Program-made: the position numbers and the translations under genes
The notes under the pieces: generated by a model
The model's database searches: none
The model's input: only the letters and a program-made list of their open reading frames with translations
Told to the model about the DNA's origin: nothing
Source: an uncultured Flavobacteriaceae bacterium
GTDB lineage: Bacteria; Bacteroidota; Bacteroidia; Flavobacteriales; Flavobacteriaceae
Reading direction: 5' to 3'
Length of the DNA: 64,000 nucleotides
Assembly (NCBI GenBank): GCA_947502975.1
Contig: CANNBV010000007.1
Coordinates: 62,001-126,000, forward strand
In this document: positions 4,794-21,875 of the stretch, in pieces
Layout: each line of letters begins with the position of its first letter
Position numbering within the stretch: position 1 is the first letter of the stretch

Positions 4794-5705
4794 ATGGAAA
4801 AATCAATTAAAATATTTACAGGCCTTTTGATTATTACTCTAGCTATTTTATCATTTACGGAAAGAAAAATTTTTAATGATGATGAAGAGGTAAATACCTT
4901 ACTTGAAGCCAGAAAGGTCATCATCAACGATATCGACAAAAAAAAGATAGATAGTCTATCTGCTATTTTTTCTGATAAGATTGAGATCGAAGACAAAGAA
5001 GTTAAAAATTCTGTTAATGCCATTAAGTCAGCAGTTAATTCGCTTCAACTAAAAGAAAATGCTCCTAGACTGAAAGAAGATACGTTTAACGCCTTAATGA
5101 CTGCTGTTGATACAAAAAATAAAGCCTTAGCGAAAAAGAGTGATGAAAACCTTGAAGTTATTAAAGAATTTAAAAACAAAACTGTATATAAATATGAAGA
5201 GTCCAAACAGAAAGACTCACCTAACATTTGGCTTATTATTTTAATTATTCTCACTGCAGGAATTATTGGAGGGTGGGCTCGTGTAAATTATGCATTGTTA
5301 TTACCAATTAAAAACGATTTACAGTCATTGATTTCTAGAATGATTTCTGTTCGAGATGAAATAGATGGTCTTCAAAATAATCAACAACCAGGTCAGGCAC
5401 AAATTAGGAATCAAGCTGTAAACCTGGTTTCACAAAAAACAGATGACCTTAAGCTGAAAATAGAAAGTATTATCAATGATTTACCTACTAAAAAACAAAG
5501 AGTTAATACAAGTATGACTTTTGGAGTAATCGCATCATCTATAGCAATATTAGCTCTAAAATTAACAGATAGCAAAGTACTTGAATTTAATGATACAATT
5601 GATTATTTTATTTTATGGGCTTGGTGTTTACTTGGAGCTGTCTATGCTAAAGATTCAATTGAAAGAATCTACAATAAAAATTTTAATCCAAATAACAATG
5701 GATAA
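4794..5705 (+). CDS. Multi-pass membrane protein with coiled-coil segments
   Basis: The 303-residue protein has an N-terminal membrane segment (about residues 8-22), a helical charged region (30-135), a second membrane segment (about 144-163), a cytosolic-looking helical stretch (165-240), and two closely spaced C-terminal membrane segments (about 243-260 and 267-285). The family is not recognised. A gap of 163 bases separates it from the previous gene, so it may have its own promoter. Its layout of a helical lobe between membrane helices loosely recalls the motor-like proteins on the opposite strand, but no MotA/ExbB signature was found. Confidence 0.7.
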   Translation: MEKSIKIFTGLLIITLAILSFTERKIFNDDEEVNTLLEARKVIINDIDKKKIDSLSAIFSDKIEIEDKEVKNSVNAIKSAVNSLQLKENAPRLKEDTFNALMTAVDTKNKALAKKSDENLEVIKEFKNKTVYKYEESKQKDSPNIWLIILIILTAGIIGGWARVNYALLLPIKNDLQSLISRMISVRDEIDGLQNNQQPGQAQIRNQAVNLVSQKTDDLKLKIESIINDLPTKKQRVNTSMTFGVIASSIAILALKLTDSKVLEFNDTIDYFILWAWCLLGAVYAKDSIERIYNKNFNPNNNG

Positions 5706-6689: not shown

Positions 6690-7487
6690 ATGAAGCAGAT
6701 TATATATTTAATAGTTTTACTTCTTACTTTATCTTTTACTGGTGGCCCTAAAAGACCAAAAGGTAATGTCCCAAAGTCTTTTAAAAAGGCTGGTAGATTA
6801 AAACCAAAATTTAATAAAGCTACTAATAAAGGTATAGCAAAGAATAAATTTAATAGAAGTTCTCGTAAGCCAATTAAGCAAAAGTTTAACAAAGTATCTA
6901 GGAAAGGAACTGCAAAAAATAAATTTAATAAGGTTGCTAAGCGCAAAGAGTTAAGGCAAAAATTTAATAAAAAATCTAAAAGAGGTTATGCGAAATCCAA
7001 TTCTAAAAAGAATGTTAGACTAAATAGATTAAATAAAAGGGCAAGAAAATTTAATTTAAATTCAAAAAGAGGTTACGCTGTATCTAGGTTTAATAAAAGT
7101 ACGGTTCAGAAAAGAAAAATTAAGAAAGGTAAAGCTGCTAAAAATAAACTAAGCTCAAATCCAAAAAAATTGTTTAAATCAGCAATTTCAAAATATAAAA
7201 ATTCAGATTTAACCCATGTTGGAAGAGCTGTAACTAAGCATCCTGAATATTTTGGTTTTAAATCTAATAATGATTTAAGAAAGGTCTATAGAACAGATGC
7301 TGCTATTAATAAGCTAGGATCAGATCGATTAAAAGAATTTTTAAGAAAAGGAGATAAGTCTGTTAATCCAAGAGGAAAAGGGAGATATCGTAGTGGTTGG
7401 ATCAATTATAGTTTGAAAGATGGAAGTATTGCTACTTGGAGTACCAATGGTAAGTTTATTGGTTTTAGAGGACCAGAATCAAAATAA
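6690..7487 (+). CDS. Secreted basic-repeat protein with C-terminal polymorphic-toxin-like domain
   Basis: The 265-residue protein has a signal peptide (residues 1-18), then a strongly basic region (20-150) built on a repeated KFN(K/R)xxxKGxAKN unit; KFN-type triplets recur about every 10-20 residues. The last 105 residues resemble C-terminal nuclease domains of polymorphic toxins. The matching features are an LTHVGRAVTKH motif at 174-184, then GRYRSGWINYSLKDGS and a final TWSTNGKFIGFRGP, aligned by eye with the (L)T(K/H)AGRA..KHG ... GRGARFD.NG.F.GFLEP pattern. RNase activity is inference. It is the last plus-strand gene before the convergent junction at about 7,490. No adjacent immunity gene is recognisable. 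Confidence 0.7.
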   Translation: MKQIIYLIVLLLTLSFTGGPKRPKGNVPKSFKKAGRLKPKFNKATNKGIAKNKFNRSSRKPIKQKFNKVSRKGTAKNKFNKVAKRKELRQKFNKKSKRGYAKSNSKKNVRLNRLNKRARKFNLNSKRGYAVSRFNKSTVQKRKIKKGKAAKNKLSSNPKKLFKSAISKYKNSDLTHVGRAVTKHPEYFGFKSNNDLRKVYRTDAAINKLGSDRLKEFLRKGDKSVNPRGKGRYRSGWINYSLKDGSIATWSTNGKFIGFRGPESK

Positions 7488-7492
7488 AGTTT

Positions 7493-8026
7493 TTACTCTA
7501 ATATTAATTCACCTTTATTATAATCGACAGAAACCTTTTTAAAATTTTCTAATGCTGATTGCCCAAAAAGGAGAGGGGCTTTAGTGTTATGAACAATAGA
7601 TGCCTCAATATCTTTTAATATAGTATTACCAATTTTAACAGTTTTAATGTTAACTAGAGTTCCTTCTGAAATATCGCCATTGGCATCCCTAAAATTAGCC
7701 GTACCCTTAATATCATCTTTAGTTAAGGTGCCATCTGTCATTAATAAATCGGCTTCTTTTTGAGAAATTGAAATAATACTAGCCCCAGTATCAAATATAA
7801 AATTCATTCTTTGTCCATTTAATTCTACAGGAATGGTATAAACACCATTTCTTTTTTGCATTTTTATTACTGTTCTTCCACTTGAATTTGCATTACGATT
7901 TTCTCTGTTTGAGGTATCTGGTCTTTCTAATCTTGTTCGGTTTAATTTTTGGGCAGATTTAGAACAACCATTGCATCCAGCTAGAGAAAAAATAGTAATA
8001 AAGATTAGAAAATATTTAATTTTCAT
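7493..8026 (-). CDS. Lipoprotein with retropepsin-like aspartic protease domain (DTGA type)
   Basis: The start at 8026 is preferred because it gives a clean lipoprotein signal (MKIKYFLIFITIFSLAGC); the upstream in-frame start adds 11 hydrophilic residues. After a short linker the domain shows the catalytic motif FIFDTGASIISIS and, later, the PLLFGQSALENF motif of the clan AA single-domain proteases (TIGR02281-like), which work as dimers. The mature protein should sit in the periplasm attached to a membrane. It lies 78 bases downstream of the OmpA/MotB-like gene on the same strand and may be the last gene of the motor-like operon. It converges with the toxin-like gene, 5 bases away. Confidence 0.88.
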   Translation of the reverse strand: MKIKYFLIFITIFSLAGCNGCSKSAQKLNRTRLERPDTSNRENRNANSSGRTVIKMQKRNGVYTIPVELNGQRMNFIFDTGASIISISQKEADLLMTDGTLTKDDIKGTANFRDANGDISEGTLVNIKTVKIGNTILKDIEASIVHNTKAPLLFGQSALENFKKVSVDYNKGELILE

Positions 8027-8104
8027 TGATTTGTTCTTGAGGGCCAATTTATAATACAAGTAAATCTATAACATTTCAGTCTTAAACCCATAAAATATGG
8101 AAGT

Positions 8105-8833
8105 TTATTTTTTATAAGCGTATAGCCATATTTCTATACGTCTTTTTTTGTTATTCTCGTTATCACCTTCTTTAAATATTATATCATTACTTAGTTTACC
8201 TGTATCAGGATCAATTAAAGGACCTGAAGACATAGGAAACCAATGTTTTATCTTATTATTTATACTTTCGTAATTCTTTAAGAAGTGATAGATACTTACA
8301 GCCCTTAACAATCCTAGGTCTGTATTGGAATTATATTCAATATTATGATATTTTTTTAATCGTAATGAGTTATAAACGTCTTCATCAAAATTTAGATTCC
8401 TATGTGTTTTTCCTACAGATTGGTTGTCGGTATGACCCACAATATAAATGGCGTTACAGCCAGAGCACTGTTCTATGTATGTAGCTAATTTTGGGACTAT
8501 TGAATCGTTTAAATACGTTGCAAAATCTTCCGGTATAACTGATTCGCGTGAAGGAAAATTAAACTCTTCTGCACCATTTAACTCAATATGAGGTAGTGTA
8601 TTGTTTACATGCTTTGCTAATTTGCTCTCATAGAATTCAGTTCTCAAAATTAAAGAGTCCAATTTAATTTCTAAATCTTCTTTTTCCTTTACTACGGTTT
8701 TTTCTTTTTCTTTTTTTGCAATTTTTTCTTTTTCATATTGTCCGTTTTTTGTTAGCAAAACAGCTGTGAATATAGAGAATACCATAGCTAAAAAGACGAA
8801 GATTTCCGTATTTCTGAGTATATCTGTTTTCAT
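8105..8833 (-). CDS. OmpA/MotB-like membrane protein (second stator pair, B subunit)
   Basis: The 242-residue protein has one N-terminal membrane helix (about residues 8-27), a Lys/Glu-rich coiled coil (33-75) and an OmpA-C-like domain (about 90-240). That domain has the IVGHTDNQ strand, NTDLGLLRAVSIYHFL with the conserved Arg, and NNKKRRIEIWL at the end. This is the MotB/OmpA architecture, with peptidoglycan binding expected. Unlike MotB, the membrane helix has no central Asp; a Glu lies at its start (E9). Its ATG overlaps the stop of the upstream MotA-like gene (ATGA, 8830-8833), so the two are translationally coupled. Confidence 0.85.
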   Translation of the reverse strand: MKTDILRNTEIFVFLAMVFSIFTAVLLTKNGQYEKEKIAKKEKEKTVVKEKEDLEIKLDSLILRTEFYESKLAKHVNNTLPHIELNGAEEFNFPSRESVIPEDFATYLNDSIVPKLATYIEQCSGCNAIYIVGHTDNQSVGKTHRNLNFDEDVYNSLRLKKYHNIEYNSNTDLGLLRAVSIYHFLKNYESINNKIKHWFPMSSGPLIDPDTGKLSNDIIFKEGDNENNKKRRIEIWLYAYKK

Positions 8834-10110
8834 AACTCTGAACCTCCTTTTCCGAATATTTTTTTTATCAATCTTGCCCTAAATCCATCTTTCTTACGGA
8901 CACTTTCATGAAGAGCCTCAAGGGCATCTTTGACTTCTTGAATATCTTTCTTTAAGTTTTGACTTTCATATAATTTACCGATTATACCTGGGTCAATATT
9001 TTCAATCCCCGTTTTTATAGCACTTAAAAATTCATTAGATAGTTTTGTGTTATTAATTATTGCTTCATTATATTTTTTAACTAAATCTTTGAATTGACTA
9101 ATCTCTTCAAGAGTGCCCTTAAAACCTTCTTTAAGAGCCTCTAAATAATCAGCTATCATTTTGTCTAGCTCACTAATCTTGTCTAACTCTCTATTAATTC
9201 TTCCTGCTAATTCCGAATAATATTCTGTGATTTTTTCCTTTATTTCTTTTTGACTTTCTTCATAAAGGCTTAATATTTTTTGGGTAAGTTCTAGAATTGC
9301 CTTTTCATAAATTTCTTGATACGCCCTTAAGTCTTTTTTTATATCATTTAATGTGGCTTTAACTTCTTGCGTATAATCTTTATTAGTTTGCCTAAGAGTT
9401 TCTAACGAAGCATTATATTGAGTAATAACTTGTTCTTGTTTTTTGTAAAGTCTACTTGAGTTTGTCACAAATGTTTCTGTAGATTTCTCGTACTTTACCT
9501 TGGTTAATAAGACCTCTTTTGTTAATTCATCTAAGGATTCTTTAAGGGTTTTTACAGATTTATTCAAATTATCATCATATTCATTGTCAGGTGTTGCTAT
9601 TAGACTTCCGAATGCCCATCCAAATATGGAAGTAATTAGTGCCATTCCTATAGGAAAAGCTACCAATGTTAAGTCTGGAGGGGAGATGTCAAGTTTTTCA
9701 AAACTATCACTAATATTTTCTTGAGTTATCGGCACAAGGCTTAAAATGGCAATAAAGAACCCTATTAAAGTTTGAATGTAACCAGCCAGTTGAATATAAT
9801 CTTTATAAAAGGATTTTAATTTGAATAAGGCCTCTGTGCCATTTTTAGCCTTATTGAATTTTATAGCAATTTTTGCCCACACAAACATCACAAAAATCAG
9901 TATAACTGGTATTATAATTAATAGATTGTTCCATGTTGATTTTTCTTTTAATTCAACTAGCTTAGTTACTGTATATTGAGCACTTATGTAGTCGTGAAGA
10001 CCATTATAATTGCAAGAAACCAATATTGCTTTCCAAAATCCCAAGATAGAAGTTGATAAAAGGCCCAGAACATATAACCAAAGGTATCCTTTGTCTTTTG
10101 TTTTACTCAT
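8830..10110 (-). CDS. MotA/ExbB-like membrane protein with long coiled-coil tail (second stator pair, A subunit)
   Basis: The 426-residue protein has four predicted membrane helices (about residues 9-27, 60-80, 105-127, 148-172). The last two, GYIQTLIGFFIAILSL and AFPIGMALITSIFGWAFGS, resemble the pore-lining TM3 and TM4 of MotA/ExbB/TolQ. Residues 180-405 form a long cytoplasmic coiled coil. The four-helix layout is closer to MotA than to ExbB. Placement directly before an OmpA/MotB-like gene with an ATGA overlap supports a stator-type complex. A 131-base gap (10111-10241) separates it from the first pair. Similarity is by pattern, so the family call is moderate. Confidence 0.7.
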   Translation of the reverse strand: MSKTKDKGYLWLYVLGLLSTSILGFWKAILVSCNYNGLHDYISAQYTVTKLVELKEKSTWNNLLIIIPVILIFVMFVWAKIAIKFNKAKNGTEALFKLKSFYKDYIQLAGYIQTLIGFFIAILSLVPITQENISDSFEKLDISPPDLTLVAFPIGMALITSIFGWAFGSLIATPDNEYDDNLNKSVKTLKESLDELTKEVLLTKVKYEKSTETFVTNSSRLYKKQEQVITQYNASLETLRQTNKDYTQEVKATLNDIKKDLRAYQEIYEKAILELTQKILSLYEESQKEIKEKITEYYSELAGRINRELDKISELDKMIADYLEALKEGFKGTLEEISQFKDLVKKYNEAIINNTKLSNEFLSAIKTGIENIDPGIIGKLYESQNLKKDIQEVKDALEALHESVRKKDGFRARLIKKIFGKGGSEL

Positions 10111-10241
10111 AGTGATAGAAAATTAAACATGTCAAGAAATCACTAATCAGACTTCAAAACTTGCGTTTTACTTTAAAATTTATGAGCTATTAACTAACTT
10201 TTAGGAGAGAAAAGTTATTTTGTGTACTTCCGTGTTAGTGA

Positions 10242-10955
10242 TTATGTTTTGTTCGCATTTCCAATTTTAGGTATTATTTGTATGATGAATCGTTGATTTT
10301 TAATTTCGTTTCTATAGTAGTTTTCAGGATCGCGTTCAAACCTACCAACTCCACCCCAACCGTTACCTGATATTTGTAAATCTATTAAGCCTTTATATTT
10401 GTCAGCTTCAAAATCAATACCTATAGATTTCCAGTAGTTCCAAAGATTATAGGCGCGTTGATAGCTTAATTCATAGTCACTAAATTGATTAGCATTTTTT
10501 AAGTGTGATGCATAACCAGAGATGATTACCAGATAGGATACTTCATTCATTTTTTCATTATTCTTCTTTTCTTCGGCTAATCTATCAATGGTATTTTGTA
10601 ACTGCCTACCAACATCAATAATTTTTCTTGAAGTTCTCTGAAAATTTCTAAGTTCACCTCTTTTAATTTTAGATTTTTTAATTACAAAATTCACATCAAA
10701 AGCCAAGGTAAAACGCTTATATATATCTTCATATCTAAATAGAAGTGTATCTTTTTTTAATGGTATTAAGTTTTGCTCTACTAAATCATAAACTTCTAAC
10801 TTTTCTTCTAAATTCTCTACTGTTTCCTCAAGTTTATTTTGCTCCCCTTTGAGCATCACAAATGTGAGAACAAATAAAACAAGCACAACAAAAAATAAGC
10901 TAATCATGAGATCAGAAAAGCTCATCCAAAAAAAATTGTTTTGTGTTTTTTTCAT
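10242..10955 (-). CDS. MotB/ZorB-like membrane protein (first stator pair, B subunit)
   Basis: The 237-residue protein has one membrane helix with the MotB-type motif SFSDLMISLFFVVLVLF; D15 is in the position of the ion-carrying Asp of MotB and ZorB. A short coiled coil follows (about 37-60), then an OmpA-like domain (about 115-235). That domain has YLVIISGYAS and the conserved ELSYQRAYNLWNYW helix, with the Arg kept. The usual GHTD Asp is replaced by the GYAS sequence, so peptidoglycan binding may be altered. Its start codon overlaps the stop of the MotA-like gene by one base (TAATG). Family assignment is good; the coupled ion is not known. Confidence 0.85.
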   Translation of the reverse strand: MKKTQNNFFWMSFSDLMISLFFVVLVLFVLTFVMLKGEQNKLEETVENLEEKLEVYDLVEQNLIPLKKDTLLFRYEDIYKRFTLAFDVNFVIKKSKIKRGELRNFQRTSRKIIDVGRQLQNTIDRLAEEKKNNEKMNEVSYLVIISGYASHLKNANQFSDYELSYQRAYNLWNYWKSIGIDFEADKYKGLIDLQISGNGWGGVGRFERDPENYYRNEIKNQRFIIQIIPKIGNANKT

Positions 10956-12517
10956 TATTTTAGTTTAAACCAGTTTTTAAACTTTGTAAAAAAGGATTTT
11001 TTATTTTTAGCACCTCTAGATTCTAGCAACTCTAATTTCTCATTTATAGCTTCCAAGATTTTATTATTACCTTCTAGTTGAGAAGAAAAAGTATTTTTAA
11101 GATCAATTGAATTTTGATTTAATTCTTCAAGCAGAGATAATTTTGAAAAATGGCTTCTGTTATTAGCTAGTTCTTTAGTCATCAAATCTTCTTCTTTAAT
11201 GACTATTTCTTTAATAGCATCAACCTGTTTAGAAGCGTGGTTTCTTAATTCATTAAGAGACTTTACTAATATATCATCCGTGTTTTTAACGGCTCCTAAA
11301 ACATATTCTCTACTATTATCAATAGCGGTGTAGTGATCATCTAAAAATGTAACTAATTTGTTAACCTCTTCAATTCTTTGATCTAGCTTCTCAGCTAGAT
11401 GTTTAAAATTGTTAGTTTCAGAAAGAATAGCATTAAAAGAATTTGATAATTTTAGACCTTTTGTGTTTACATCATCTAACAGACCTAAATACTGATTAAA
11501 CTTTGCAAATTGTTCTGAACCAGTCCTGAGTTCTACCATTATATCTAAGTTAGCTTTCACAAACTTTGCAATATCTATGGTATCTAATTTTTGTAAAATT
11601 CTATCTTGGGCTTTTATGGCATCATAGTTTTGGTTTAATAGTCCAGAAAGTTCATTAACATTAATTCCAAAATCTTCATTAAACTTAACGAGATTAGTAT
11701 GAAGGTGATGTACGCTAGACGATATACTTTTATTTATTATGGGAAGTAATTCAATTTGCATGAAAGTATAAAAATCGTTTTTAGCATCTTCTACTTCAAT
11801 TCTTGCAGATTTGTGATTAAAACTTGAATTATAAACTGTCCATCCCAGACCATAAAAACTAGCAATCATAGCTATGGATACACCTAAAAGAAAACCTTGA
11901 ACTTCAAAATTAGTTGAAGTGCTTGACGCTAAATATAAATTTGCAAGACCGAAAACTATACCTAACATAGTACCCATTAGCCCCATGTAAAGCGGTATAG
12001 TAACGGTTTGAGTGATTGAATCATCATGAGAATTTATTTTTCGTTCAACAATATCTTCAATCAACTTAAAATCTGTAGTAGCTCCTTTATTTCTTAATAA
12101 ATATACGTTTATTGAATACAAGAGCTCATCAAAAACGGGATTGGTTTTTTCATTAGGATTTATAAGACTAACTTCAGTTAGATTTGTATCAATATGCTCT
12201 TCATCATCTGGAGTATAAATGTTCCCACCTTTATCTACTTCTAAAACATCTAAATAATCATCCTCCTCATCCTCTTCATTATCATCATAAGATGAGAGTT
12301 GAGATAATATATGTTTAGGATGTACATCTCTTAAATCTTTAGAAGGGATTTTATGTTTAGTAATCTTAAAAAAATCGCTTGTAGGTACTATACGCCTTAA
12401 AAAGTTAATTTTAGATAAGGTTTTTAAACCAAATCTGGTTTGAAGCATAATAATAACACAAACTAGAACTAATTCAATTAAGGTAATGTTATCCATACTT
12501 AATTTCAACTTTTTCAA
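10955..12517 (-). CDS. MotA/ZorA-like proton-channel protein with long coiled-coil tail (first stator pair, A subunit)
   Basis: The 520-residue protein has an N-terminal helix (about 10-30), an acidic cytoplasmic loop (60-165), and two adjacent membrane helices. The first, PLYMGLMGTMLGIVFGL (about 174-197), carries the MotA/ExbB GL.GT..GI signature; the second is FLLGVSIAMIASFYGLG (about 209-229). A helical tail of nearly 290 residues follows. Three membrane helices plus a long cytoplasmic tail is the layout of ZorA of Zorya defence systems. None of the other Zorya genes (ZorC, ZorD, ZorE) is present. A second ATG at 12496 would shorten the overlap with the upstream gene from 29 to 8 bases and is an equally plausible start. 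Confidence 0.85.
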   Translation of the reverse strand: MKKLKLSMDNITLIELVLVCVIIMLQTRFGLKTLSKINFLRRIVPTSDFFKITKHKIPSKDLRDVHPKHILSQLSSYDDNEEDEEDDYLDVLEVDKGGNIYTPDDEEHIDTNLTEVSLINPNEKTNPVFDELLYSINVYLLRNKGATTDFKLIEDIVERKINSHDDSITQTVTIPLYMGLMGTMLGIVFGLANLYLASSTSTNFEVQGFLLGVSIAMIASFYGLGWTVYNSSFNHKSARIEVEDAKNDFYTFMQIELLPIINKSISSSVHHLHTNLVKFNEDFGINVNELSGLLNQNYDAIKAQDRILQKLDTIDIAKFVKANLDIMVELRTGSEQFAKFNQYLGLLDDVNTKGLKLSNSFNAILSETNNFKHLAEKLDQRIEEVNKLVTFLDDHYTAIDNSREYVLGAVKNTDDILVKSLNELRNHASKQVDAIKEIVIKEEDLMTKELANNRSHFSKLSLLEELNQNSIDLKNTFSSQLEGNNKILEAINEKLELLESRGAKNKKSFFTKFKNWFKLK

Positions 12518-13751
12518 TTAAAACCCATAAATCTCCTTCTTTTTTTAGTTTACCTGGTTTTAATGTTATAATATTTTTTGCATTTTGATCAATAGCTTGA
12601 GTGCTTTCACAAACTGGCTTTATAAAAACTTCAGGAGTATTGGTTGCTTTTTTAACAGAACCTTCTGAACTGTAAAATTCAAATACTGCATTATTTGGAG
12701 TTCTCTCATCTACAGTGATTTTATAACATGTTTTAGATTCTTGAATTTGAGACGATAAACTAGATATAGCAAATGAGCCATTTTTATTAGGCGCGTAGGC
12801 ATAAAAGTTATTTATAGTTTTAGGCTCTGGTCCAGTTTGTCTGGATTTAGTTTCTGTATGGGTACTACTAGAAACAGGTTGCTTTACAGGAGAATTATAT
12901 TGTTGTTTTTTTTCTATACTTTTCTCAAGTTTTTCCAATCTAGTTTTCAGATTTCCTACGTTATCATCAATGTGTTTTTTATAGCTATTAAATCTTTCGT
13001 TTGTAACTTCAGTATTATTTGAAGATTTAGAACCAGAAGATTCAATTGCTTGTAATCTTCTTTCAAGTGTTTCTAGTTTATAGTTTAAGCCTTTACGATA
13101 CTGGCTAAATACAAAAAATATAACAGCTAAAAATAATATTAACATCAATATAAAATATAGCCAGTTACTGCTTGTTTGTTTTTTAGCATGAGTCTTTAAT
13201 ACATTGGAAGATGTATCATATTCAATAGGATCGTTTTGTTTTGCAGTTTCAGTTGATAAGCTTTCGGGCTTTAACAAATCAAAAAAATATTCAAGCTTAG
13301 TTTTTACCCGAGATTTTTGTTTAATAATTCCAGGATATGATGTATACAAAGATTCTAGAGCCCCATTTTCATATATTCCAGTTATAATCATTAGAAGAAC
13401 TTCTTGAGTATTCATAGATTCTTCAAAATCAGCATCCAATTTAGAAATTACAGGCGAAAGTTTATTTTCTAAATTTCCAAACTCATATTTATTTAGCAAA
13501 GATTTTAACTCAGAGTATGTTATTACATCTTCTATATTACAATTATCAATAGCAGGTTTAATAAAATTATAATAGGCTTGAGCCTCATTACTATCTTTGT
13601 TTAATTCTGTATAATTTTTTGCATAAGCATCAACAAAATTGCAAGCACAATAATTTATTGCCCTATTATACTTGTTTTGAGATATTTGTGCTGGAAGAGC
13701 ATTAATTATAAAAAAAAAGATCAAGTAAGTTAAATGAATAGTGTTTTTCAT
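12489..13751 (-). CDS. Bitopic membrane protein with periplasmic and cytoplasmic domains
   Basis: The 420-residue protein starts with a signal peptide (residues 1-21, ending LPA). A periplasmic helical domain (22-190) has a CAC motif near its start. One membrane helix follows (about 196-216), then a cytoplasmic coiled coil (220-285), a Ser/Thr-rich linker and a C-terminal beta-rich domain (about 320-420). The family is not recognised. The gene lies 4 bases after the actin/Hsp70-like gene and overlaps the MotA-like gene. Inference: it could carry a signal between periplasm and the cytoplasmic ATPase and GTPase, since it has domains on both sides of the membrane. Confidence 0.75.
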   Translation of the reverse strand: MKNTIHLTYLIFFFIINALPAQISQNKYNRAINYCACNFVDAYAKNYTELNKDSNEAQAYYNFIKPAIDNCNIEDVITYSELKSLLNKYEFGNLENKLSPVISKLDADFEESMNTQEVLLMIITGIYENGALESLYTSYPGIIKQKSRVKTKLEYFFDLLKPESLSTETAKQNDPIEYDTSSNVLKTHAKKQTSSNWLYFILMLILFLAVIFFVFSQYRKGLNYKLETLERRLQAIESSGSKSSNNTEVTNERFNSYKKHIDDNVGNLKTRLEKLEKSIEKKQQYNSPVKQPVSSSTHTETKSRQTGPEPKTINNFYAYAPNKNGSFAISSLSSQIQESKTCYKITVDERTPNNAVFEFYSSEGSVKKATNTPEVFIKPVCESTQAIDQNAKNIITLKPGKLKKEGDLWVLIEKVEIKYG

Positions 13752-13755
13752 TGTT

Positions 13756-16700
13756 CTAATTTGAAATAGCTATTTTATATGCCAAATTGTTTAATGCGCC
13801 AATGAGTGGATAAAAAAATAAAGATTCCTCTAATGGAATACTATTATTACCATTTAGCCTTTCAATTTTTTCATCACGTCCACTTTTAAGATCTTCCATA
13901 ACATTAGCCTCTAGCATAGTTTTATATTCCTCTAAATGTTTTGGATTTACATCAAAATAGTTTTTAAAATTCATTTCATTATTTAGCGAAAAAATAAAAT
14001 CAATAAAACTAATGGACTCTTTATATATTTCTTTTAAAAGAGCATCATCTAAATTTTTATAAGTAATAGGTTTGTTAGATACTAATGTGTTATCAATATC
14101 TCCAATTAAAACTTCTTTGATATTATCAATATTAATAGAACTCTCAATTTCTGAATTAATTTCTAAACCTCCTTTACAAGTGACTTCTTTAGGGTCTGCT
14201 TCCATTTTTATTTCAATGTCATGACTTATCTCATGATTGAAAATTTTGGAGAATACCAGCTTAGTAAACTTGTTTAAGTTTTCTAAGTTCGTCCCTCCAT
14301 TAGCTATTAAAATAACTTTGGCACCTGTACCACTAAAAATAATATTTTTTGGGACACCTAAATCTCTTGCCTTCATTAGTTTAGCAATATGATATATAAT
14401 TGAAGCGTAAAATAATAGGAATACTATTTTTAAATCTGAATCATCAGATAAAAATCTGGAAAATTCAATAGGAACTCTTTTATCCTTTATATCCTTATTA
14501 TTAGCTAAAGAAAAATAAAAAGCAATTAAATCTTCGGATTTTTTTCTACTACTTATTTGATTATAAGCACTAAGTAATTCAGTGAGACTATTTTTTTCTA
14601 ATAGGTCCCTTACTTTGTCTTTATACTTAATAATAAAACCATTGACTTCAGGAGAGCCTCCATAACCATCCCCAAAGATTGAATTAGCAGCATATTTCAT
14701 TGATGAGAGTAGGATAGGGGATTTCCCTTTAAAAATCACCAAGTCACTTGTACCTCCACCTATATCAATAGAAACTACTGGTTTATCTGATGCCGAAATA
14801 TTTCTATTACTTTTATAGAAATAGAATGGAGCAATAGACTCTGAAAGTCTAAGAGTATGACTGGAGTCAAAATATTTTTTAAAGTAAGTATTCCAGATAG
14901 CTTCTAATTTTTTAACTTTAGTGTCATCCATACTAGAAGGGTAAAACCAAATAATTTCAGTTTTACTCAAATTCCCATTCATATTGAGTACTTTACCTCT
15001 AATAAGTAATAGGAGCTTTTCAATAAACTTTTCTACTCTAATCTTATCTTTACTGTTGGAATCTTGAAAATCAGACCATTTTAAATTAGTTGAAATATGA
15101 GTATTTCTCTTACTACCATATTTTTCATAATCAAATGGGATATTGATATCTCCCAAAGCCTCTGGTATAGAAGAAAACTCTAATTTTATATCCTCTCCAG
15201 TAACAGTACGTATTGGAAACTTAAACTCAGATTCCCCTCCAATTATTTCAGGAAAGAATTCATGCCTAATAAAGCTATTCATCTCTATAATATCAGCATA
15301 TTTGCCAACATTATCATTTATTTCAGAGCTATTAGAATGTAAAGTTGAATATTGTATTTCTTCTTTCTTTATTTCAAATGGATAAGAGCCATTTTCTCCG
15401 TCAATTTTATATTCAACATGAGTATTGGTTGTTCCAAAGTCAACAGCAAATTTTATTTTAGTTGTTCCATTTACTTGTTTTAATTTTGGTACTATTATTC
15501 CTGTTGCTGTATTATGGTTCAATTTTATGTAATCAAAATCTTGTTCAAGCGAATAGTAATCTGTCTGTATACCATCCTGTATTTTTAAGCTTCTAGACGT
15601 TTTTTCATTTTCAATAGGTTCCATTAAAGAGTTTTTATAGAACTCTAAAGCGTAGGTATAATGTTTAGTATCTAAAGCATCATCATTATCTAAAAACATT
15701 AAACGATAAAATGGTTTATCTTCATTTGTAAATTTTACAAAAGGATAAATAGCTAATGAGACTGTATTTGCTATAATATTACCTTGATTCATAGTCTCAT
15801 CAGGAACTGCGTTAGCAATACCTTTATTTTGATATGTACGAGTAAGCGTAATATGATTTATTCTTGCATTACCTCTAATTGGAATTCTTAAAATAACATC
15901 AACTGAGTTATTAAAAACCCGCATTTCAATCATTGGCATGCCATTTGGTAAGTGTTTTTGCAAATCTTCGGTATCAAAATACTCAAAAAATGTTTTGGTC
16001 AATGGAAGTAAGTAACTTTTAGATGGGTCACCACTCTCATAAATAGTATTACCATTAAAATAATCACCAGAGTTTAAAGGAAATGGTAAGCTAATGATAT
16101 AAGGTTGTAAAAAATCACTAACCGTAATGTATGGGTATTTATCTTTTTGGTTTGGTAGAGTCCTTTCATCCATTGGTCTAGAGTCAAAATGGGGGACTTC
16201 CCAACTACTATTCCATAACACGTTTGGAAATGTATACACTAAAGGTTGGTTAAGATTATTCTGTAATACTAAAGGTTTTAATTTTCCTTTATTTGAACTT
16301 ATGATTAATTCACTACTTTCAACTATAGATTTTTTTACGTTAGCAATCTTTCTTTTCTTTAAAGGAATTCCTAAAACTTCAATATTATTGTTCTCAATTC
16401 CCGTATCTAAGGTATCATAGTTATTATTTAAATCTGTAATAAGTTTATCAGGTGTTATAGTATCTAATTTAGAAATTATAGAAAAAGTACTCTTATCATG
16501 TGTGTCTAGATTTTTTATACTTAGTTCTAAATAACTATAGAAGTTTGCCATTTTTTTAGATAAATTTGGATATGCTCTAAAAAGTGAATATAAATAGATT
16601 TGAAATTCGGTATCTCTTTTATATAAGGGTTGTAAGTCTTCATCAAAAAAGATATCATTACCTTCACCAAAATCTATAAAACTTTTATCATTTGCAGAAG

Positions 16701-17202
16701 TAAAAAACAAACTAGTAGGTGATGTACCTCCAATGATTTTACTATCGTAAAATAGAAAGTACATTTTTTGTAAATCATCAAAGTTATTGGCCTCAGCATC
16801 TTGATTTAAAAATAGCTGTAAAGTTTCTCCGTACAGTCTATGCCTATGATTACTTGAATTTAATAATATATCTAAGTCTACTTTTCTATCCCATACTTCA
16901 ATCCGTACACTATCACCATATTTATCTAAATTAAAGAACATTTCGGCAACGTCTAAACAATCAGATACTAACTTATGATATATGGTTTGACCGTTTAAAT
17001 TTTTATCATCAGCGACATATTTAAAAGCTGAGCGAATAAGATCAATTCTAGCAAAAGGACTGGGTATTGAAGTGGGATCTTTTTTAGAAAAATCGCCATC
17101 TGGGTTTTTTATTGAATCTATAACCGATGGACCATAAGGTTCACCTCTGTCTTCCCAATCTTGTAAATCTTTATCTTGAAAAAGTCTTAATACTTTACCC
17201 AT
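13756..17202 (-). CDS. Large actin/Hsp70-fold ATPase with unassigned N-terminal region
   Basis: The 1148-residue protein has an actin/Hsp70-superfamily ATPase core in its second half. Phosphate-1 is FAVDFGTTNTHVEY at about 585-598, a connect-like segment is SESIAPFYFY at about 787, phosphate-2 is SIDIGGGTSDLVIF at 811-824, and the adenosine motif is IIFSGTGAK at 954-962. The first 570 residues have no motif I recognise apart from a GGTSPTSLFF segment near 158. The total length recalls large Hsp70-like proteins such as the SrfB family, but I cannot confirm that. It starts 2 bases after the tubulin-like gene, which suggests the two NTPases are made together. No signal peptide or membrane helix is seen. 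Confidence 0.88.
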   Translation of the reverse strand: MGKVLRLFQDKDLQDWEDRGEPYGPSVIDSIKNPDGDFSKKDPTSIPSPFARIDLIRSAFKYVADDKNLNGQTIYHKLVSDCLDVAEMFFNLDKYGDSVRIEVWDRKVDLDILLNSSNHRHRLYGETLQLFLNQDAEANNFDDLQKMYFLFYDSKIIGGTSPTSLFFTSANDKSFIDFGEGNDIFFDEDLQPLYKRDTEFQIYLYSLFRAYPNLSKKMANFYSYLELSIKNLDTHDKSTFSIISKLDTITPDKLITDLNNNYDTLDTGIENNNIEVLGIPLKKRKIANVKKSIVESSELIISSNKGKLKPLVLQNNLNQPLVYTFPNVLWNSSWEVPHFDSRPMDERTLPNQKDKYPYITVSDFLQPYIISLPFPLNSGDYFNGNTIYESGDPSKSYLLPLTKTFFEYFDTEDLQKHLPNGMPMIEMRVFNNSVDVILRIPIRGNARINHITLTRTYQNKGIANAVPDETMNQGNIIANTVSLAIYPFVKFTNEDKPFYRLMFLDNDDALDTKHYTYALEFYKNSLMEPIENEKTSRSLKIQDGIQTDYYSLEQDFDYIKLNHNTATGIIVPKLKQVNGTTKIKFAVDFGTTNTHVEYKIDGENGSYPFEIKKEEIQYSTLHSNSSEINDNVGKYADIIEMNSFIRHEFFPEIIGGESEFKFPIRTVTGEDIKLEFSSIPEALGDINIPFDYEKYGSKRNTHISTNLKWSDFQDSNSKDKIRVEKFIEKLLLLIRGKVLNMNGNLSKTEIIWFYPSSMDDTKVKKLEAIWNTYFKKYFDSSHTLRLSESIAPFYFYKSNRNISASDKPVVSIDIGGGTSDLVIFKGKSPILLSSMKYAANSIFGDGYGGSPEVNGFIIKYKDKVRDLLEKNSLTELLSAYNQISSRKKSEDLIAFYFSLANNKDIKDKRVPIEFSRFLSDDSDLKIVFLLFYASIIYHIAKLMKARDLGVPKNIIFSGTGAKVILIANGGTNLENLNKFTKLVFSKIFNHEISHDIEIKMEADPKEVTCKGGLEINSEIESSINIDNIKEVLIGDIDNTLVSNKPITYKNLDDALLKEIYKESISFIDFIFSLNNEMNFKNYFDVNPKHLEEYKTMLEANVMEDLKSGRDEKIERLNGNNSIPLEESLFFYPLIGALNNLAYKIAISN

Positions 17203-17204
17203 AA

Positions 17205-18713
17205 TTATATAAGTTTTTTATTAACAACAGCTGTTGTTGCTTGCGAAAATATTTCTAAAAACCGTTTTGGAGCATCAGGTGCATTACCGGTTGCTTTAGC
17301 AGCTTTGTTTAAAAAAGAAACAAAAAGCTCATCATTATTACTTGCAAATGGATTTAAGTTCTTTTTCTCTGGAGTATCTCTAACTAGTGTAAAAATGTTA
17401 TTTGATCCTAAACTAAAGTCTGTAATTTTATTTTCTTGATTAACAACCGGATTGACTGAAAAAGGACTAAAAGCTATACTGTTTCGTGATAGTTCTGCAA
17501 TCCAAACTCTAAATGAACTATTAAAAGCGGTTAGTGTTTTATAAAATCCTTGGTATAGAAAGTTTTGATCTATAACTGGTTCATATTCTTTTGCAAAAGG
17601 CGCTTTTAACCAATCTTTGAGATAATTGTTTGTAAATAAATTGAAATAAAAATATTCAATTAAATTCTGCTTCAATAAATTTTGTGAAGCACCATATAAA
17701 TTGCCAAAACTTAAATTATTGTCTCCGTTTATACCAAATTCTTTAAATTTTGGCTTAATAGCTTTTCCATTTGTGGTTTGTAAATAAGTATCATCAGTAT
17801 GTGCAAAATCAATTATAGCTAAAGCAGAACTTAATTCTATAAAATGAGCATCGTTTTGTTGATTTTTCCCACCTTCATTATTCTCATAAGTGTTGTCAGC
17901 GGCATCTCCAATATAATATAAGTGATTTACAGAATTATTACCAGAAATATTTTTTGAATAATAATGTAATGCAGCTTTAGTTTTGGTAATGAAACCATGG
18001 CTATCAATTTCAGAATTATCATTTTGTTTTACCTTAAAGTAGGGCTGAACAGTTATGGCGCCAATTTTAGAGTTTTTTAAATACTCATAGTGCTTACCTT
18101 CAATATTTGCCTTTCTGAGGTTTTTAACTAGTAAAGGAAAACCTGCAGCACCAGTACCTCCAAAAATAGAGCTAATTATAAAGATTCTATCATTAGCTTC
18201 AAAAGTATCTGCAAATGATTGAAATACTTCAGACTTGGTAAATTGATTAAGTACAACACTACCTATATTGGGATTTCCTTTGAAACCTACATCTAGGTCT
18301 GCGTCTAAATTCTTTTCAGAAAATAAAAGCTTAGCTAAGTTTTTATTGTTTCTGTCTAAACTATTAAAATCAATAAAGTCTTTGAATTTATCATTTTGAA
18401 CTCCATCTAATTCAAACCTAAAGCCATCAAAAACCTTAGCACCACCACCTTTTTCAGTAATAATATCACCTAGAGTAGTAATTTTGTTCTTAAAATATTT
18501 ATTGGGTTTGTGTCCTGCACCAGCTGTATACAAATCTTGATATTCTCGTAATAGCTTTGTAGTTCTATTAAGGTCACCACCAGCACCATCAGGGTCTATT
18601 AAAATAGGTACAATATCAAAACCTGTATCTATACCAGAAGCAAGGAGCATAGTTAAAGAGCGTATTACTCTACTTCCTGTTCCACCAATACCAAAAACAT
18701 ATAGTTTAGCCAT
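17205..18713 (-). CDS. Tubulin/FtsZ-like GTPase (Tubulin_2-like)
   Basis: The 502-residue cytoplasmic protein begins with the nucleotide-binding strand and loop YVFGIGGTGSRVIRSL (residues 5-20), then ILIDPDGAGGD. It carries the tubulin signature loop as SIFGGTGAAGFP (182-193), in place of the usual GGGTG(T/S)G. These match the Tubulin_2-like branch rather than cell-division FtsZ. Length and the lack of an FtsZ C-terminal tail also argue against FtsZ. The gene is followed 2 bases later by the actin/Hsp70-like ATPase gene, an unusual pairing of two cytoskeletal folds. Polymerisation is inferred from the family, not visible in the sequence. Confidence 0.85.
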   Translation of the reverse strand: MAKLYVFGIGGTGSRVIRSLTMLLASGIDTGFDIVPILIDPDGAGGDLNRTTKLLREYQDLYTAGAGHKPNKYFKNKITTLGDIITEKGGGAKVFDGFRFELDGVQNDKFKDFIDFNSLDRNNKNLAKLLFSEKNLDADLDVGFKGNPNIGSVVLNQFTKSEVFQSFADTFEANDRIFIISSIFGGTGAAGFPLLVKNLRKANIEGKHYEYLKNSKIGAITVQPYFKVKQNDNSEIDSHGFITKTKAALHYYSKNISGNNSVNHLYYIGDAADNTYENNEGGKNQQNDAHFIELSSALAIIDFAHTDDTYLQTTNGKAIKPKFKEFGINGDNNLSFGNLYGASQNLLKQNLIEYFYFNLFTNNYLKDWLKAPFAKEYEPVIDQNFLYQGFYKTLTAFNSSFRVWIAELSRNSIAFSPFSVNPVVNQENKITDFSLGSNNIFTLVRDTPEKKNLNPFASNNDELFVSFLNKAAKATGNAPDAPKRFLEIFSQATTAVVNKKLI

Positions 18714-18735
18714 AATCTGAATACTTTAATTTTAA

Positions 18736-19149
18736 TTAAAATTTGCCAAAGAAAATTTTGGGAATACCTTTTGTATCTGAATTCCACCATTTGAATGCAT
18801 ATGACCAGATGACAAACACAATAATACATATAACGGCATTTTTAAGCCCAAAAAGGGCATAATCTATGAATTTATACTCCAACCCTAAAGCTGTAAGGGT
18901 GTTTTGAGTTACTAATATTCCAACTACGAAATTAATGATGAAACTTATTAGAAGCATGAATAGCCAATATTTGAGCTTGGAGAATTTTGGTCTATTAAAA
19001 AAATAGAAAACTATAGTTAAAAACAGTCCCACAAAAATATTAATTAACCCAACTGAAGTATATAGTTCTTCTTGATATATATCATCTGAAAAAGTACCAG
19101 CATACCCTAACAATTCGTAGATAACAGCAAAGAAATCATTTAAATTCAT
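18736..19149 (-). CDS. Small multi-pass inner-membrane protein
   Basis: The 137-residue protein has about three to four membrane helices: one around residues 27-48 (GLINIFVGLFLTIVFYFF), one around 57-77 and one around 99-121. It ends in a short basic tail. The family is not recognised and no catalytic motif is visible. It lies 4 bases after the von Willebrand A-like lipoprotein gene and 22 bases before the tubulin-like gene, so it is part of the operon. It could anchor a cytoplasmic component to the membrane (inference). Confidence 0.75.
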   Translation of the reverse strand: MNLNDFFAVIYELLGYAGTFSDDIYQEELYTSVGLINIFVGLFLTIVFYFFNRPKFSKLKYWLFMLLISFIINFVVGILVTQNTLTALGLEYKFIDYALFGLKNAVICIIVFVIWSYAFKWWNSDTKGIPKIFFGKF

Positions 19150-19153
19150 AGAT

Positions 19154-20662
19154 TTATTTTTTAATAGTTATTTTGGTTTTTATATATGATTGTTCATCAC
19201 CATTTTTAAGATAGTAAGCTTCAGAAACTCCCTCCAATAAATATTTTAAGCCAAAGGTTTTGCTTAACTGATTTTTAATTTTTTTATCATCAATACTTGA
19301 ACTTGCACTTATCCAATTTGGAGCTTTAACAGGGAGTTCAATTTCTAAATCTTGTAATACATTATCTGCTTTAAAGCTTATAGTTATGATGTGAGTTGCA
19401 GAGGTTTTCTCTAACTTTATCCAATCATTTTTATGAACTTTAGAAGCATCAATTCTATCAATAGACCTTATTTTAAATCCTTCAGAAACTATATAGTTCT
19501 CAATAGAAGTCAAATAGTCGTCATCTACAGAAATACCACTTAAATCTATTGCTACGGCAAATTGGAAAATAGCATTTCTATATTCTAATTCATTTATACC
19601 GGTTATAGTTTTTGATTTTTTATCAATAGGTCTAAATCTACCTATAAGATTAGTATTCCTCAAAACAGTGGTGTAAGGAGAGGTTTTTGAAAAATCATTA
19701 AGTAAATAATAGCTATTAACAAAGCCTTTAAGTTTTTCTAAATCAATTGTTTTAGAAAATTGTAATACATTTTGATCTGAACCAATCACCCATATATAAT
19801 ATGGTCTTTGCGCTTCAGTTAACAGTGTTGGTTTATCATCTTTATCGTAATATTTTCCATTAAACCTTGACTCCATTTTCAAGATTATAGTAGAAAAATT
19901 AAATTCTTTAGATTTTTCAAGAAAGACGCCTTTAGTTAAACTTTTTTGAAACTCTAGAGCACCTATAGTTTCTTTTGCTTTACCCAATGAATAAATACAA
20001 TCTGAGATAAAAACAGAGATGTTATTTTGAGACGTACTATCTAGAATAATCTCGAGAACTTCATTAAGCTTACTCACAGATCTGTCTCCAACTTTATAAG
20101 GTGATTTACTTGGCTCTAATTTTTCAACAAAATCATTAACTTCAGTTATTTCAGATTTATGAATTTTAGTATTAATAAAATTTACATTGAGGTTCTCGCT
20201 ATCATAACGGTACTGAATTTGAACTAATAGATCAGAAAGTGCAGCTTCAAACTCAGTAGTTTTGTTAACATAACCATCCATACTTGCAGAATTTTCAATG
20301 TAAACATTAACTTCTGCTTTTTCGTTATTTTCTTGTGTTACAGTTTTATTAGGATTATAGATTTCAGCAACATCAGTAACATTCCGTCTTTTTTCAGCCA
20401 CATCTAGAATATAGCTATTTAACTCCTCAATATTTATATTACGTTGGTCTTTAGTAATTAATGGGAAATCCTCAGGATTTGATAACACAAACGCTTTCAT
20501 ATCTTCCCATTCATTTTTATCAATTACATTATCATTTCTCAATGCAAGATTTATTTTTTTGTCTAATTCATCTTTTGGAGTAGAACAGGAATTGAAAATT
20601 AAAATAATTAAAATATACAAGCTAAGAGAGCTATATTTTGAGGGCATTTTTTTTATACTCAT
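19154..20662 (-). CDS. Lipoprotein with von Willebrand factor A-like domain
   Basis: The 502-residue protein starts with a lipoprotein signal (ILIILIFNSC, Cys at 26; 21 if the second Met at 20647 is the start). The domain from about residue 116 opens with VNVYIENSASMDGYV, a vWA-like first strand with a degenerate MIDAS (ENSAS instead of DxSxS). Later comes ISVFISDCIYSLG, like the strand that bears the third MIDAS residue. The C-terminal 200 residues are beta-rich and unassigned. It is the first gene of the probable operon. Such domains usually bind partner proteins, so it may be the periplasm-facing sensor or ligand of the system (inference). Confidence 0.78.
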   Translation of the reverse strand: MSIKKMPSKYSSLSLYILIILIFNSCSTPKDELDKKINLALRNDNVIDKNEWEDMKAFVLSNPEDFPLITKDQRNINIEELNSYILDVAEKRRNVTDVAEIYNPNKTVTQENNEKAEVNVYIENSASMDGYVNKTTEFEAALSDLLVQIQYRYDSENLNVNFINTKIHKSEITEVNDFVEKLEPSKSPYKVGDRSVSKLNEVLEIILDSTSQNNISVFISDCIYSLGKAKETIGALEFQKSLTKGVFLEKSKEFNFSTIILKMESRFNGKYYDKDDKPTLLTEAQRPYYIWVIGSDQNVLQFSKTIDLEKLKGFVNSYYLLNDFSKTSPYTTVLRNTNLIGRFRPIDKKSKTITGINELEYRNAIFQFAVAIDLSGISVDDDYLTSIENYIVSEGFKIRSIDRIDASKVHKNDWIKLEKTSATHIITISFKADNVLQDLEIELPVKAPNWISASSSIDDKKIKNQLSKTFGLKYLLEGVSEAYYLKNGDEQSYIKTKITIKK

Positions 20663-21077: not shown

Positions 21078-21527
21078 TTAGAATAGCTTAATTAAATCTT
21101 TAGCTCGATTATATTTTTGTAATGAAGCTGGCAAACGCTGTCCATATTTTACTTTCCTTTCAAAATCTTTATTATGGATATCGAATATCTCGATTAGACC
21201 AATCTTTTTTTTAACCCTTACTTTATTTTTTCCGAGAATTTCTCTCTTTATCTCTAAAAGGTTAATAGCTGCATTGTTTTTGAGTAATAAGTTGAATTTC
21301 GTCTCGAACAATATAGCCAAAGAATCAAGGGATGCTTTAATTACTTTTTCTTTTTGAACTCTTAATGGTCCTCTTAAGTTACTTGTAAATTTCCAGCGCT
21401 CTTTACTAATGCATTTGCCAGTACTCATGGTAATACTTTTACCTTGATATGAAATTTTAGCATAGATAGGGGATTCGTCATTCTTATTAGACTTTTCAGA
21501 CTTAATAAAATAGATAATTTTAAGCAT
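21078..21527 (-). pseudogene. Truncated tyrosine integrase (N-terminal arm-binding and start of core-binding domain)
   Basis: The 149 residues match the front of Bacteroidota tyrosine recombinases. There is an Arm-DNA-binding strand pair (ESPIYAKISYQGKSITMSTG), a KERW motif, and the start of a SAM-like core-binding domain (SLQKYNRAKDLIKLF). The reading frame then stops, about 250 residues short of a full integrase (usually about 400). The catalytic domain with its R-H-R-Y residues is absent, so the protein cannot recombine DNA. It sits 263 bases from the 3' end of the tRNA-Ser gene, the classical place for an island integrase. It marks the right edge of the accessory region. Confidence 0.85.
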
Positions 21528-21756: not shown

Positions 21757-21790
21757 GAAATTTTATGTTTCTTTCGAAACATCGTTTCAG

Positions 21791-21875
21791 CGGAGAAAGA
21801 GGGATTCGAACCCCCGGAGGTGTGACCCTCAACAGTTTTCAAGACTGCCGCATTCGACCACTCTGCCATTTCTCC
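21791..21875 (-). tRNA. tRNA-Ser (anticodon UGA)
   Basis: Read on the minus strand the gene starts GGAGAAATGGCAGAGTGG and ends TTTCTCC plus a discriminator G. The seven-base acceptor stem is perfect. The anticodon loop is CTTGAAA with anticodon TGA. A long variable arm and the GGTTCGAATCC T-loop are present, giving 85 nucleotides as expected for tRNA-Ser. CCA is not encoded, so the CCA-adding enzyme at 41242-42660 must complete it. The 3' end faces the integrase remnant. Confidence 0.95.

Follow-up and report, generated by a model that had tools for sequence, protein, structure and literature searches.

What might a bacterium do with an operon that encodes, side by side, a tubulin-fold protein, an actin-fold protein and subunits resembling those of an ion-driven membrane motor? 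The question is raised by ten minus-strand genes (A to J, running from position 20662 down to 7493) in a 64,000-nucleotide stretch of DNA from an uncultured Flavobacteriaceae bacterium (‘the window’), which belongs to contig C7 in a genome of 4.5 Mb. Successive genes are separated by short gaps or overlaps, save for 131 bases before H and 45 before J (Table 1). A preliminary description, made from the sequence alone, had proposed here an envelope-spanning, ion-powered machine in which two MotA/MotB-like stator pairs are joined with two cytoskeletal nucleoside triphosphatases (NTPases), and which might serve defence, conflict or envelope sensing. The gene set that it reported has been confirmed, and its interpretation is partly supported: the recurrence of the genes, the two cytoskeletal folds and the motor pair F-G were upheld, while the second stator pair was not. 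The gene set is real, conserved and mostly uncharacterised, and its core belongs, as a divergent branch, to a neighbourhood already known in part in 2010, with additions that were not found in the published literature.

The preliminary description had made its case depend on the same neighbours recurring in other genomes, and they do. The comparison covered 39 loci: the window, two named genomes, nine genomes of the family, twelve of the phylum, three plasmid-collection records (one from Prevotella and two cyanobacterial; three of six hits were taken, with H4-H6 left out), three IMG/VR contigs, and one further family and eight class genomes; two of these loci, L073 and L074, are near-duplicates. 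Neighbours were counted at a profile expect (E) value of 1e-5, using profiles refined on the first 27 loci, so that hits in those 27 are partly found by construction. D lies near C, on the same strand, at 37 of the 39 loci, and A at 34 (33 on the same strand); the B family was found at 30, the E family at 24, F and G at 22 (always together) and the retropepsin family of J at seven. At the 12 later loci, which stood outside profile building, the corresponding counts were 11 for D, nine for A and seven for F-G. A relaxed threshold of 1e-3 adds, each without its partner, F in L031 (a partial match) and G in L060 (a weak one); neither is found at 1e-5.

The exceptions for D are L056, a degraded copy that has a split C gene, no D and shortened F and G, and L101, where a C gene stands without the other core genes beside a PspA/IM30 gene (L101:1076-3466; PF04012, E 4.5e-20). 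In two distant relatives, TerD-type genes follow C and D in place of the motor (L062:6172-6822, PF02342 at E 4e-51; L104:1-2166, with a GYF/TPR protein). The A-C-D core also occurs on two cyanobacterial plasmids (L064, Gloeothece verrucosa PCC 7822; L065, Synechococcus sp. NIES-970), where its genes are annotated mostly as hypothetical or unknown. It is present on the three IMG/VR contigs as well, which are not established as viral; a phage origin was considered and rejected, there being no match among 50,697 phage records. The system is infrequent, having been found in 10 of 299, 13 of 395, 11 of 397 and 12 of 247 genomes in four overlapping samples (the window’s own genome included), and the operon is absent from both sampled congeners.

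The folds of C and D, on which the preliminary description had also rested, are backed by structure models. For C, a protein of 502 amino acids whose longest modelled helix spans 28 residues, the model supports the Tubulin/FtsZ superfamily fold. Its nucleotide loop reads FGGTGAAG, as against GGGTG(S/T)G in FtsZl1/Tubulin_2, and its score against PF13809 (19.9 bits) falls below the cut-off of 27, which a distant relative from Gloeothece exceeds; the closest named relatives found belong to Subsaximicrobium wynnwilliamsii (69% identity) and Kordia jejudonensis (60%). The model of D has the actin/Hsp70 superfamily fold, nucleotide motifs are present, and FtsA and MreB are matched as well as MamK. 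At E 0.001, D finds matches in at least 184 of 395 genomes. Among the matches listed, nine exceed 300 bits, all in tubulin-bearing genomes, and these nine, together with three weak matches in long open reading frames, cover 12 of the 13 tubulin-bearing genomes; the remaining listed matches are short and lie mostly in reading frames of 354-635 amino acids. Sequence and models together support C and D as a tubulin-fold and an actin-fold protein of the cytoplasm whose genes are near-obligate neighbours.

The reading of F and G as a MotA/MotB-like pair was borne out, in a ZorAB-like form, by PADLOC and PDB matches. G matches PADLOC ZorB1 at E 1.3e-12, and its best PDB match is ZorB itself (8vvn, E 7e-17; MotB, E 7e-4); the motor aspartate is kept in 15 of 17 G-family hits, the two others being the truncated copy in L056 and the weak, divergent hit in L060. 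F is predicted to have three transmembrane segments and a tail of ~295 residues; it scored 20.7 and 23.5 bits against PF01618 in two scans (curated cut-off 22.9), and the invariant residues of its family fall within PLYxGL..T..GI and GV..AM.AS..GL..T. No PADLOC ZorA match to F was found at E 1; its relatives in L054 and L061 give weak ones. The pair appears to resemble ZorA-ZorB in its channel, long cytoplasmic tail and wall-binding-type domain.

H and I, which the preliminary description had taken for a second stator pair of the system, were rejected in that role: the pair was found only in the window, and the alignment of H with the F family covers no more than 21 columns. H scores 14.1 bits against PF01618, under the same curated cut-off, has no relative in 198 other genomes of the family and no BLAST hit in L015-L034, and is at best MotA-like by topology and motif. 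Two proteins considered as its counterparts were also rejected, namely a long protein between F and G in L017, which aligns no better than H does with F, and a 271-residue protein of a motor-less subgroup (L031), whose 61 aligned columns lie outside the channel. A membrane protein encoded between F and G in two loci (L016:16725-18464 and L017:15828-17585) is ~580 residues long and looks vWA-like by eye (DxTxS-type and SDF motifs); no Pfam family was matched at E 0.01 by the copy in L017.

The vWA-type motif of the lipoprotein A reads ExSxSM in the window and takes the canonical form, DxSxSM, in the two cyanobacterial relatives; S125, M128 and D221 are invariant across the 23 rows of alignment A5, and A has no Pfam vWA match. 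The conserved part of E is C-terminal (~250-419). J, which matches PF13975 (E 2.8e-17) and TIGR02281 (8e-16), is the only export-type enzyme in the window operon.

How much of this was known already? The preliminary description knew of no named system with this set, which is incomplete: the combination of an FtsZ-like protein (FtsZl1) with vWA and OmpA partners had been described in 2010, as a predicted membrane-remodelling neighbourhood. The additions were not found in print. In the main text of their 2010 paper, Makarova and Koonin placed FtsZl1 among genes for vWA, P-loop GTPase, kinase and OmpA-domain proteins and suggested a role in membrane remodelling; a reviewer objection printed with it asked how a cytoplasmic tubulin would work with periplasmic parts (PMC2875224). 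Words starting with MotA, Hsp70, nuclease or proton are absent from that main text, and ‘actin’ never figures there as an operon partner. FtsZl1-type proteins are linked to PF13809 in a passage of a further article (PMC9871819). The present loci share with the FtsZl1 neighbourhoods the FtsZ-like protein and the vWA gene (34 of 39 loci, vWA by motif), as well as OmpA-domain proteins in several genomes. They differ in that C, at ~500 residues, lacks the extended coiled coil of typical FtsZl1, and is therefore not a typical member, and in that the P-loop GTPase and protein kinases of those neighbourhoods were not recognised among the ten window proteins.

The motor has a better-studied counterpart. 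In the passages of PMC11890865 that deal with it, ZorAB is a proven phage-defence motor of 5:2 composition, whose tail, wall-binding domain and aspartate are needed for defence. The present system shares with Zorya a ZorB-like subunit (G) with a transmembrane aspartate and a wall-binding-type domain; a MotA-like subunit whose topology and motif fit a channel with a long cytoplasmic tail is a probable further likeness, and restriction genes lie nearby in some genomes. To these the present system adds the tubulin-fold and actin-fold proteins, the vWA-motif lipoprotein, and the bitopic and three-transmembrane proteins, and its enzymes bear export-type N-termini, whereas Zorya effectors are cytoplasmic. 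Since its motor is ZorAB-like, and its tubulin, vWA and OmpA components had already come into view in 2010, the system is best called partly known. Other stators (MotAB, ExbBD, TolQR and GldLM) share the channel motif and topology (a PDB sequence search gave GldL at E 0.0045 and TolQ at E 0.13, behind stronger matches to coiled-coil proteins), but among solved structures G is nearer to ZorB than to MotB. The FtsZ-FtsA division pair is likewise encoded as tubulin-fold and actin-fold proteins side by side, and the weak D motif matches elsewhere are to proteins about the size of FtsA; however, the C-D system is accessory and patchy, comes with a motor and exported-type enzymes, and has in D an extra N-terminal part of 580 residues.

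It is the exchangeable exported nucleases and hydrolases of the relatives that bear most on function. Many versions of the operon come with hydrolases or nucleases whose N-termini are of export type. Variable genes lie 3' of the motor and include hydrolases at the operon end, namely retropepsin-type (seven loci), transglutaminase-like (L021, L023 and L027) and trypsin-like (L025) enzymes, in which the catalytic residues could be made out by eye. Nuclease genes of three folds occur at 11 of the 39 loci (L074 uncounted): a DNase I-like EEP family in seven (in L015 the protein is short and narrowly misses the Pfam cut-off), SNase in L019, L051 and L097, and, in L073, an Endonuclease_NS protein that carries a hydrophobic anchor at its N-terminus. 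In L097 the SNase gene directly follows that of the retropepsin, the same order as in L019; four loci (L029, L031, L033 and L051) encode the nuclease on the opposite strand, several genes off in the case of L029. Of 20 genomes, 8 have a gene of PF03372 or PF00565 no more than 12 kb from C, against 0.66 expected (P 1e-7). Strong N6_Mtase genes of the type I restriction kind occur up to 20 kb from C in 4 of the 20, against 0.43 expected (P 0.001). The congener G132, which lacks the operon, has the same tRNA-Ser and right flank (83% identity) with other cargo: McrC (PF10117, E 4e-66), an AAA ATPase and a 1601-residue helicase matching defence helicase models.

On these grounds we infer, with a confidence that stops a little short of even, that the operon encodes an envelope-spanning, ion-powered machine against phage or DNA entry, with exported hydrolases under the control of a wall-tethered motor and two cytoskeletal NTPases. 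In such a machine G would sense or grip the cell wall upon a disturbance of the envelope, such as that at phage DNA ejection; ion flow would turn F, whose tail may act on C-D filaments or switches at the membrane, where E and B would tether them; and the action of C-D would localise or activate exported enzymes, which would cut DNA and protein at the surface or while these pass through the periplasm. Counting in favour of defence are the recurrent gene order, the likeness to ZorB, the motor aspartate, the nucleases and hydrolases, the N6-methylases, the patchy distribution and the cargo of G132. The bolder proposal that this is a new kind of immune machine, in which a rotary wall-tethered motor is coupled to a tubulin-actin pair and interchangeable exported nucleases and proteases destroy incoming DNA or protein before it reaches the cytoplasm, is rather doubtful.

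Several observations weigh against a role in defence. The operon has no phenotype on record; no match to ZorC, ZorD or ZorE was found among the ten window proteins at E 1, and the system is on that account not a member of Zorya; and the motor is absent from 17 of the 39 loci at the profile threshold. The window operon contains no nuclease, and the window’s genome has no PF00565 match and no PF03372 match on the operon’s contig. Both enrichments are post hoc, the nuclease families having been picked after they were seen. EEP proteins can be phosphatases, and export was read by eye from lipoboxes and hydrophobic N-termini rather than by a signal-peptide program. Synteny between the window and G132 holds on the tRNA side only. 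Among nine fresh loci, viewed after the pattern had been noticed, one had a nuclease (the SNase of L097, with putative export); at two of the nine the contig ends after ~2 kb or less, and eight were searched by BLAST against known members, with Pfam applied to a few chosen genes. The nuclease is therefore to be seen as an accessory of some lineages, not as a universal component.

Could the core, instead, shape membranes? A machine for membrane remodelling or vesicle formation, of the kind put forward for FtsZl1 operons in 2010, in which tubulin and actin filaments would shape the inner membrane, the vWA and OmpA parts would connect it to the wall and outer membrane, and the exported enzymes would be cargo or local helpers, has a direct precedent in the tubulin-like, vWA and OmpA neighbours of that paper’s main text (PMC2875224), and an FtsZ-like C beside a D that matches FtsA, MreB and MamK makes the pair resemble the membrane pair FtsZ-FtsA. 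It leaves unexplained why nucleases of three folds are exchanged, why the distribution is patchy and why restriction genes lie nearby, and it is unlikely. The enzymes themselves stand at the centre of another account, held to be improbable to the same degree, in which motor and filaments power the positioning or release of lipoprotein enzymes at the surface or in the periplasm, whether to scavenge DNA and protein or to attack neighbouring cells. It fits the genes for nucleases and hydrolases of lipoprotein type with which the operon ends in several relatives, and the TPR histidine kinase with response regulator found nearby in seven genomes; but none of the ten window proteins was recognised as a secretion channel or an immunity protein, and the restriction genes near several copies favour defence. 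Finally, the TerD genes beside the distant C-D locus L062 and the PspA gene beside the lone C gene of L101 suggest envelope stress, with the vWA lipoprotein and the OmpA-type domain sensing wall damage and signalling through the NTPases for repair, without immunity. This is very unlikely, as exchangeable nucleases would go unexplained and the distribution is too patchy for housekeeping.

Near-obligate tubulin-fold and actin-fold partners of an ion motor would represent a new coupling of membrane energy to the cytoskeleton, and immunity, if that is the function, would act in the envelope through exported enzymes, unlike that of Zorya with its cytoplasmic effectors. The motor and the bitopic protein E would also offer a testable bridge for the puzzle raised in 2010, of a cytoplasmic tubulin with periplasmic parts.

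Table 1. Positions of the operon genes and of two features at its right flank (window coordinates).
Feature	Position	Strand	Assignment	Basis or detail
A	19154..20662	-	lipoprotein with vWA-type motif	lipobox at C26
B	18736..19149	-	small membrane protein	three predicted transmembrane segments
C	17205..18713	-	FtsZ/tubulin-fold GTPase-like protein	divergent relative of Tubulin_2/FtsZl1 (PF13809)
D	13756..17202	-	1148-residue protein, actin/MreB/FtsA fold	fold at residues 581-1025
E	12489..13751	-	bitopic protein	N-terminal hydrophobic segment; transmembrane segment 198-216
F	10955..12517	-	MotA/ExbB/ZorA-like channel subunit, likely start 12496	PF01618, alignment A3, topology
G	10242..10955	-	MotB/ZorB-like subunit, OmpA-like domain	one transmembrane segment with conserved Asp (SFSDLM)
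H	8830..10110	-	second MotA-like candidate, four transmembrane segments and coiled coil	PF01618 E 0.04, topology
I	8105..8833	-	second OmpA/MotB-like candidate	PADLOC ZorB1 E 2.7e-7; TssL-type OmpA domain E 2.2e-5
J	7493..8059	-	retropepsin-type aspartic protease lipoprotein, likely start ~8026	DTGA motif
Tyrosine-recombinase fragment	21078..21527	-	arm-binding part, between operon and tRNA	PF17293 E 1.3e-5, residues 7-76 of 149
tRNA-Ser(tga)	21790..21875	-	edge of variable region	

An attachment-site repeat at the tRNA-Ser gene was dropped as a candidate, no second copy of its last 14-20 bases having been found in the window or in the 32 kb to its left; the neighbours to the left of the window look core-like by eye.

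Among the other variable genes of the relatives, the histidine kinase and response regulator adjoin the operon in L099, and a family of proteins of 136 to 415 residues recurs in seven genomes (two members were scanned, with no Pfam match); the loci with one or the other are L017, L020, L023, L025, L026, L030, L031, L033 and L099. The subgroup L029, L031 and L033, without MotA-MotB hits, has a small YidD-like protein (by eye) encoded upstream of A and, on the opposite strand, an EEP protein with a hydrophobic N-terminus.

Elsewhere in the window, positions 1-2132 encode part of a subtilase, cut off by the left edge, and next to it a protein of metallo-beta-lactamase fold that matches PADLOC LmuA (6.6e-64), RTasMBL and Avs1a; the two are probably a separate defence unit adjoining the operon. 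A YLATT (YEATS-like-associating three TM) domain protein is encoded at 4794-5705 (PF20303, E 4e-10), and a literature search on that domain found nothing relevant. Convergent to the operon, at 6690-7487, lies the gene of a protein very rich in lysine, whose N-terminus is hydrophobic and whose last ~100 residues form a distinct part; it has no Pfam match at E 0.01 and, judged by eye, might be an exported nuclease-like protein.

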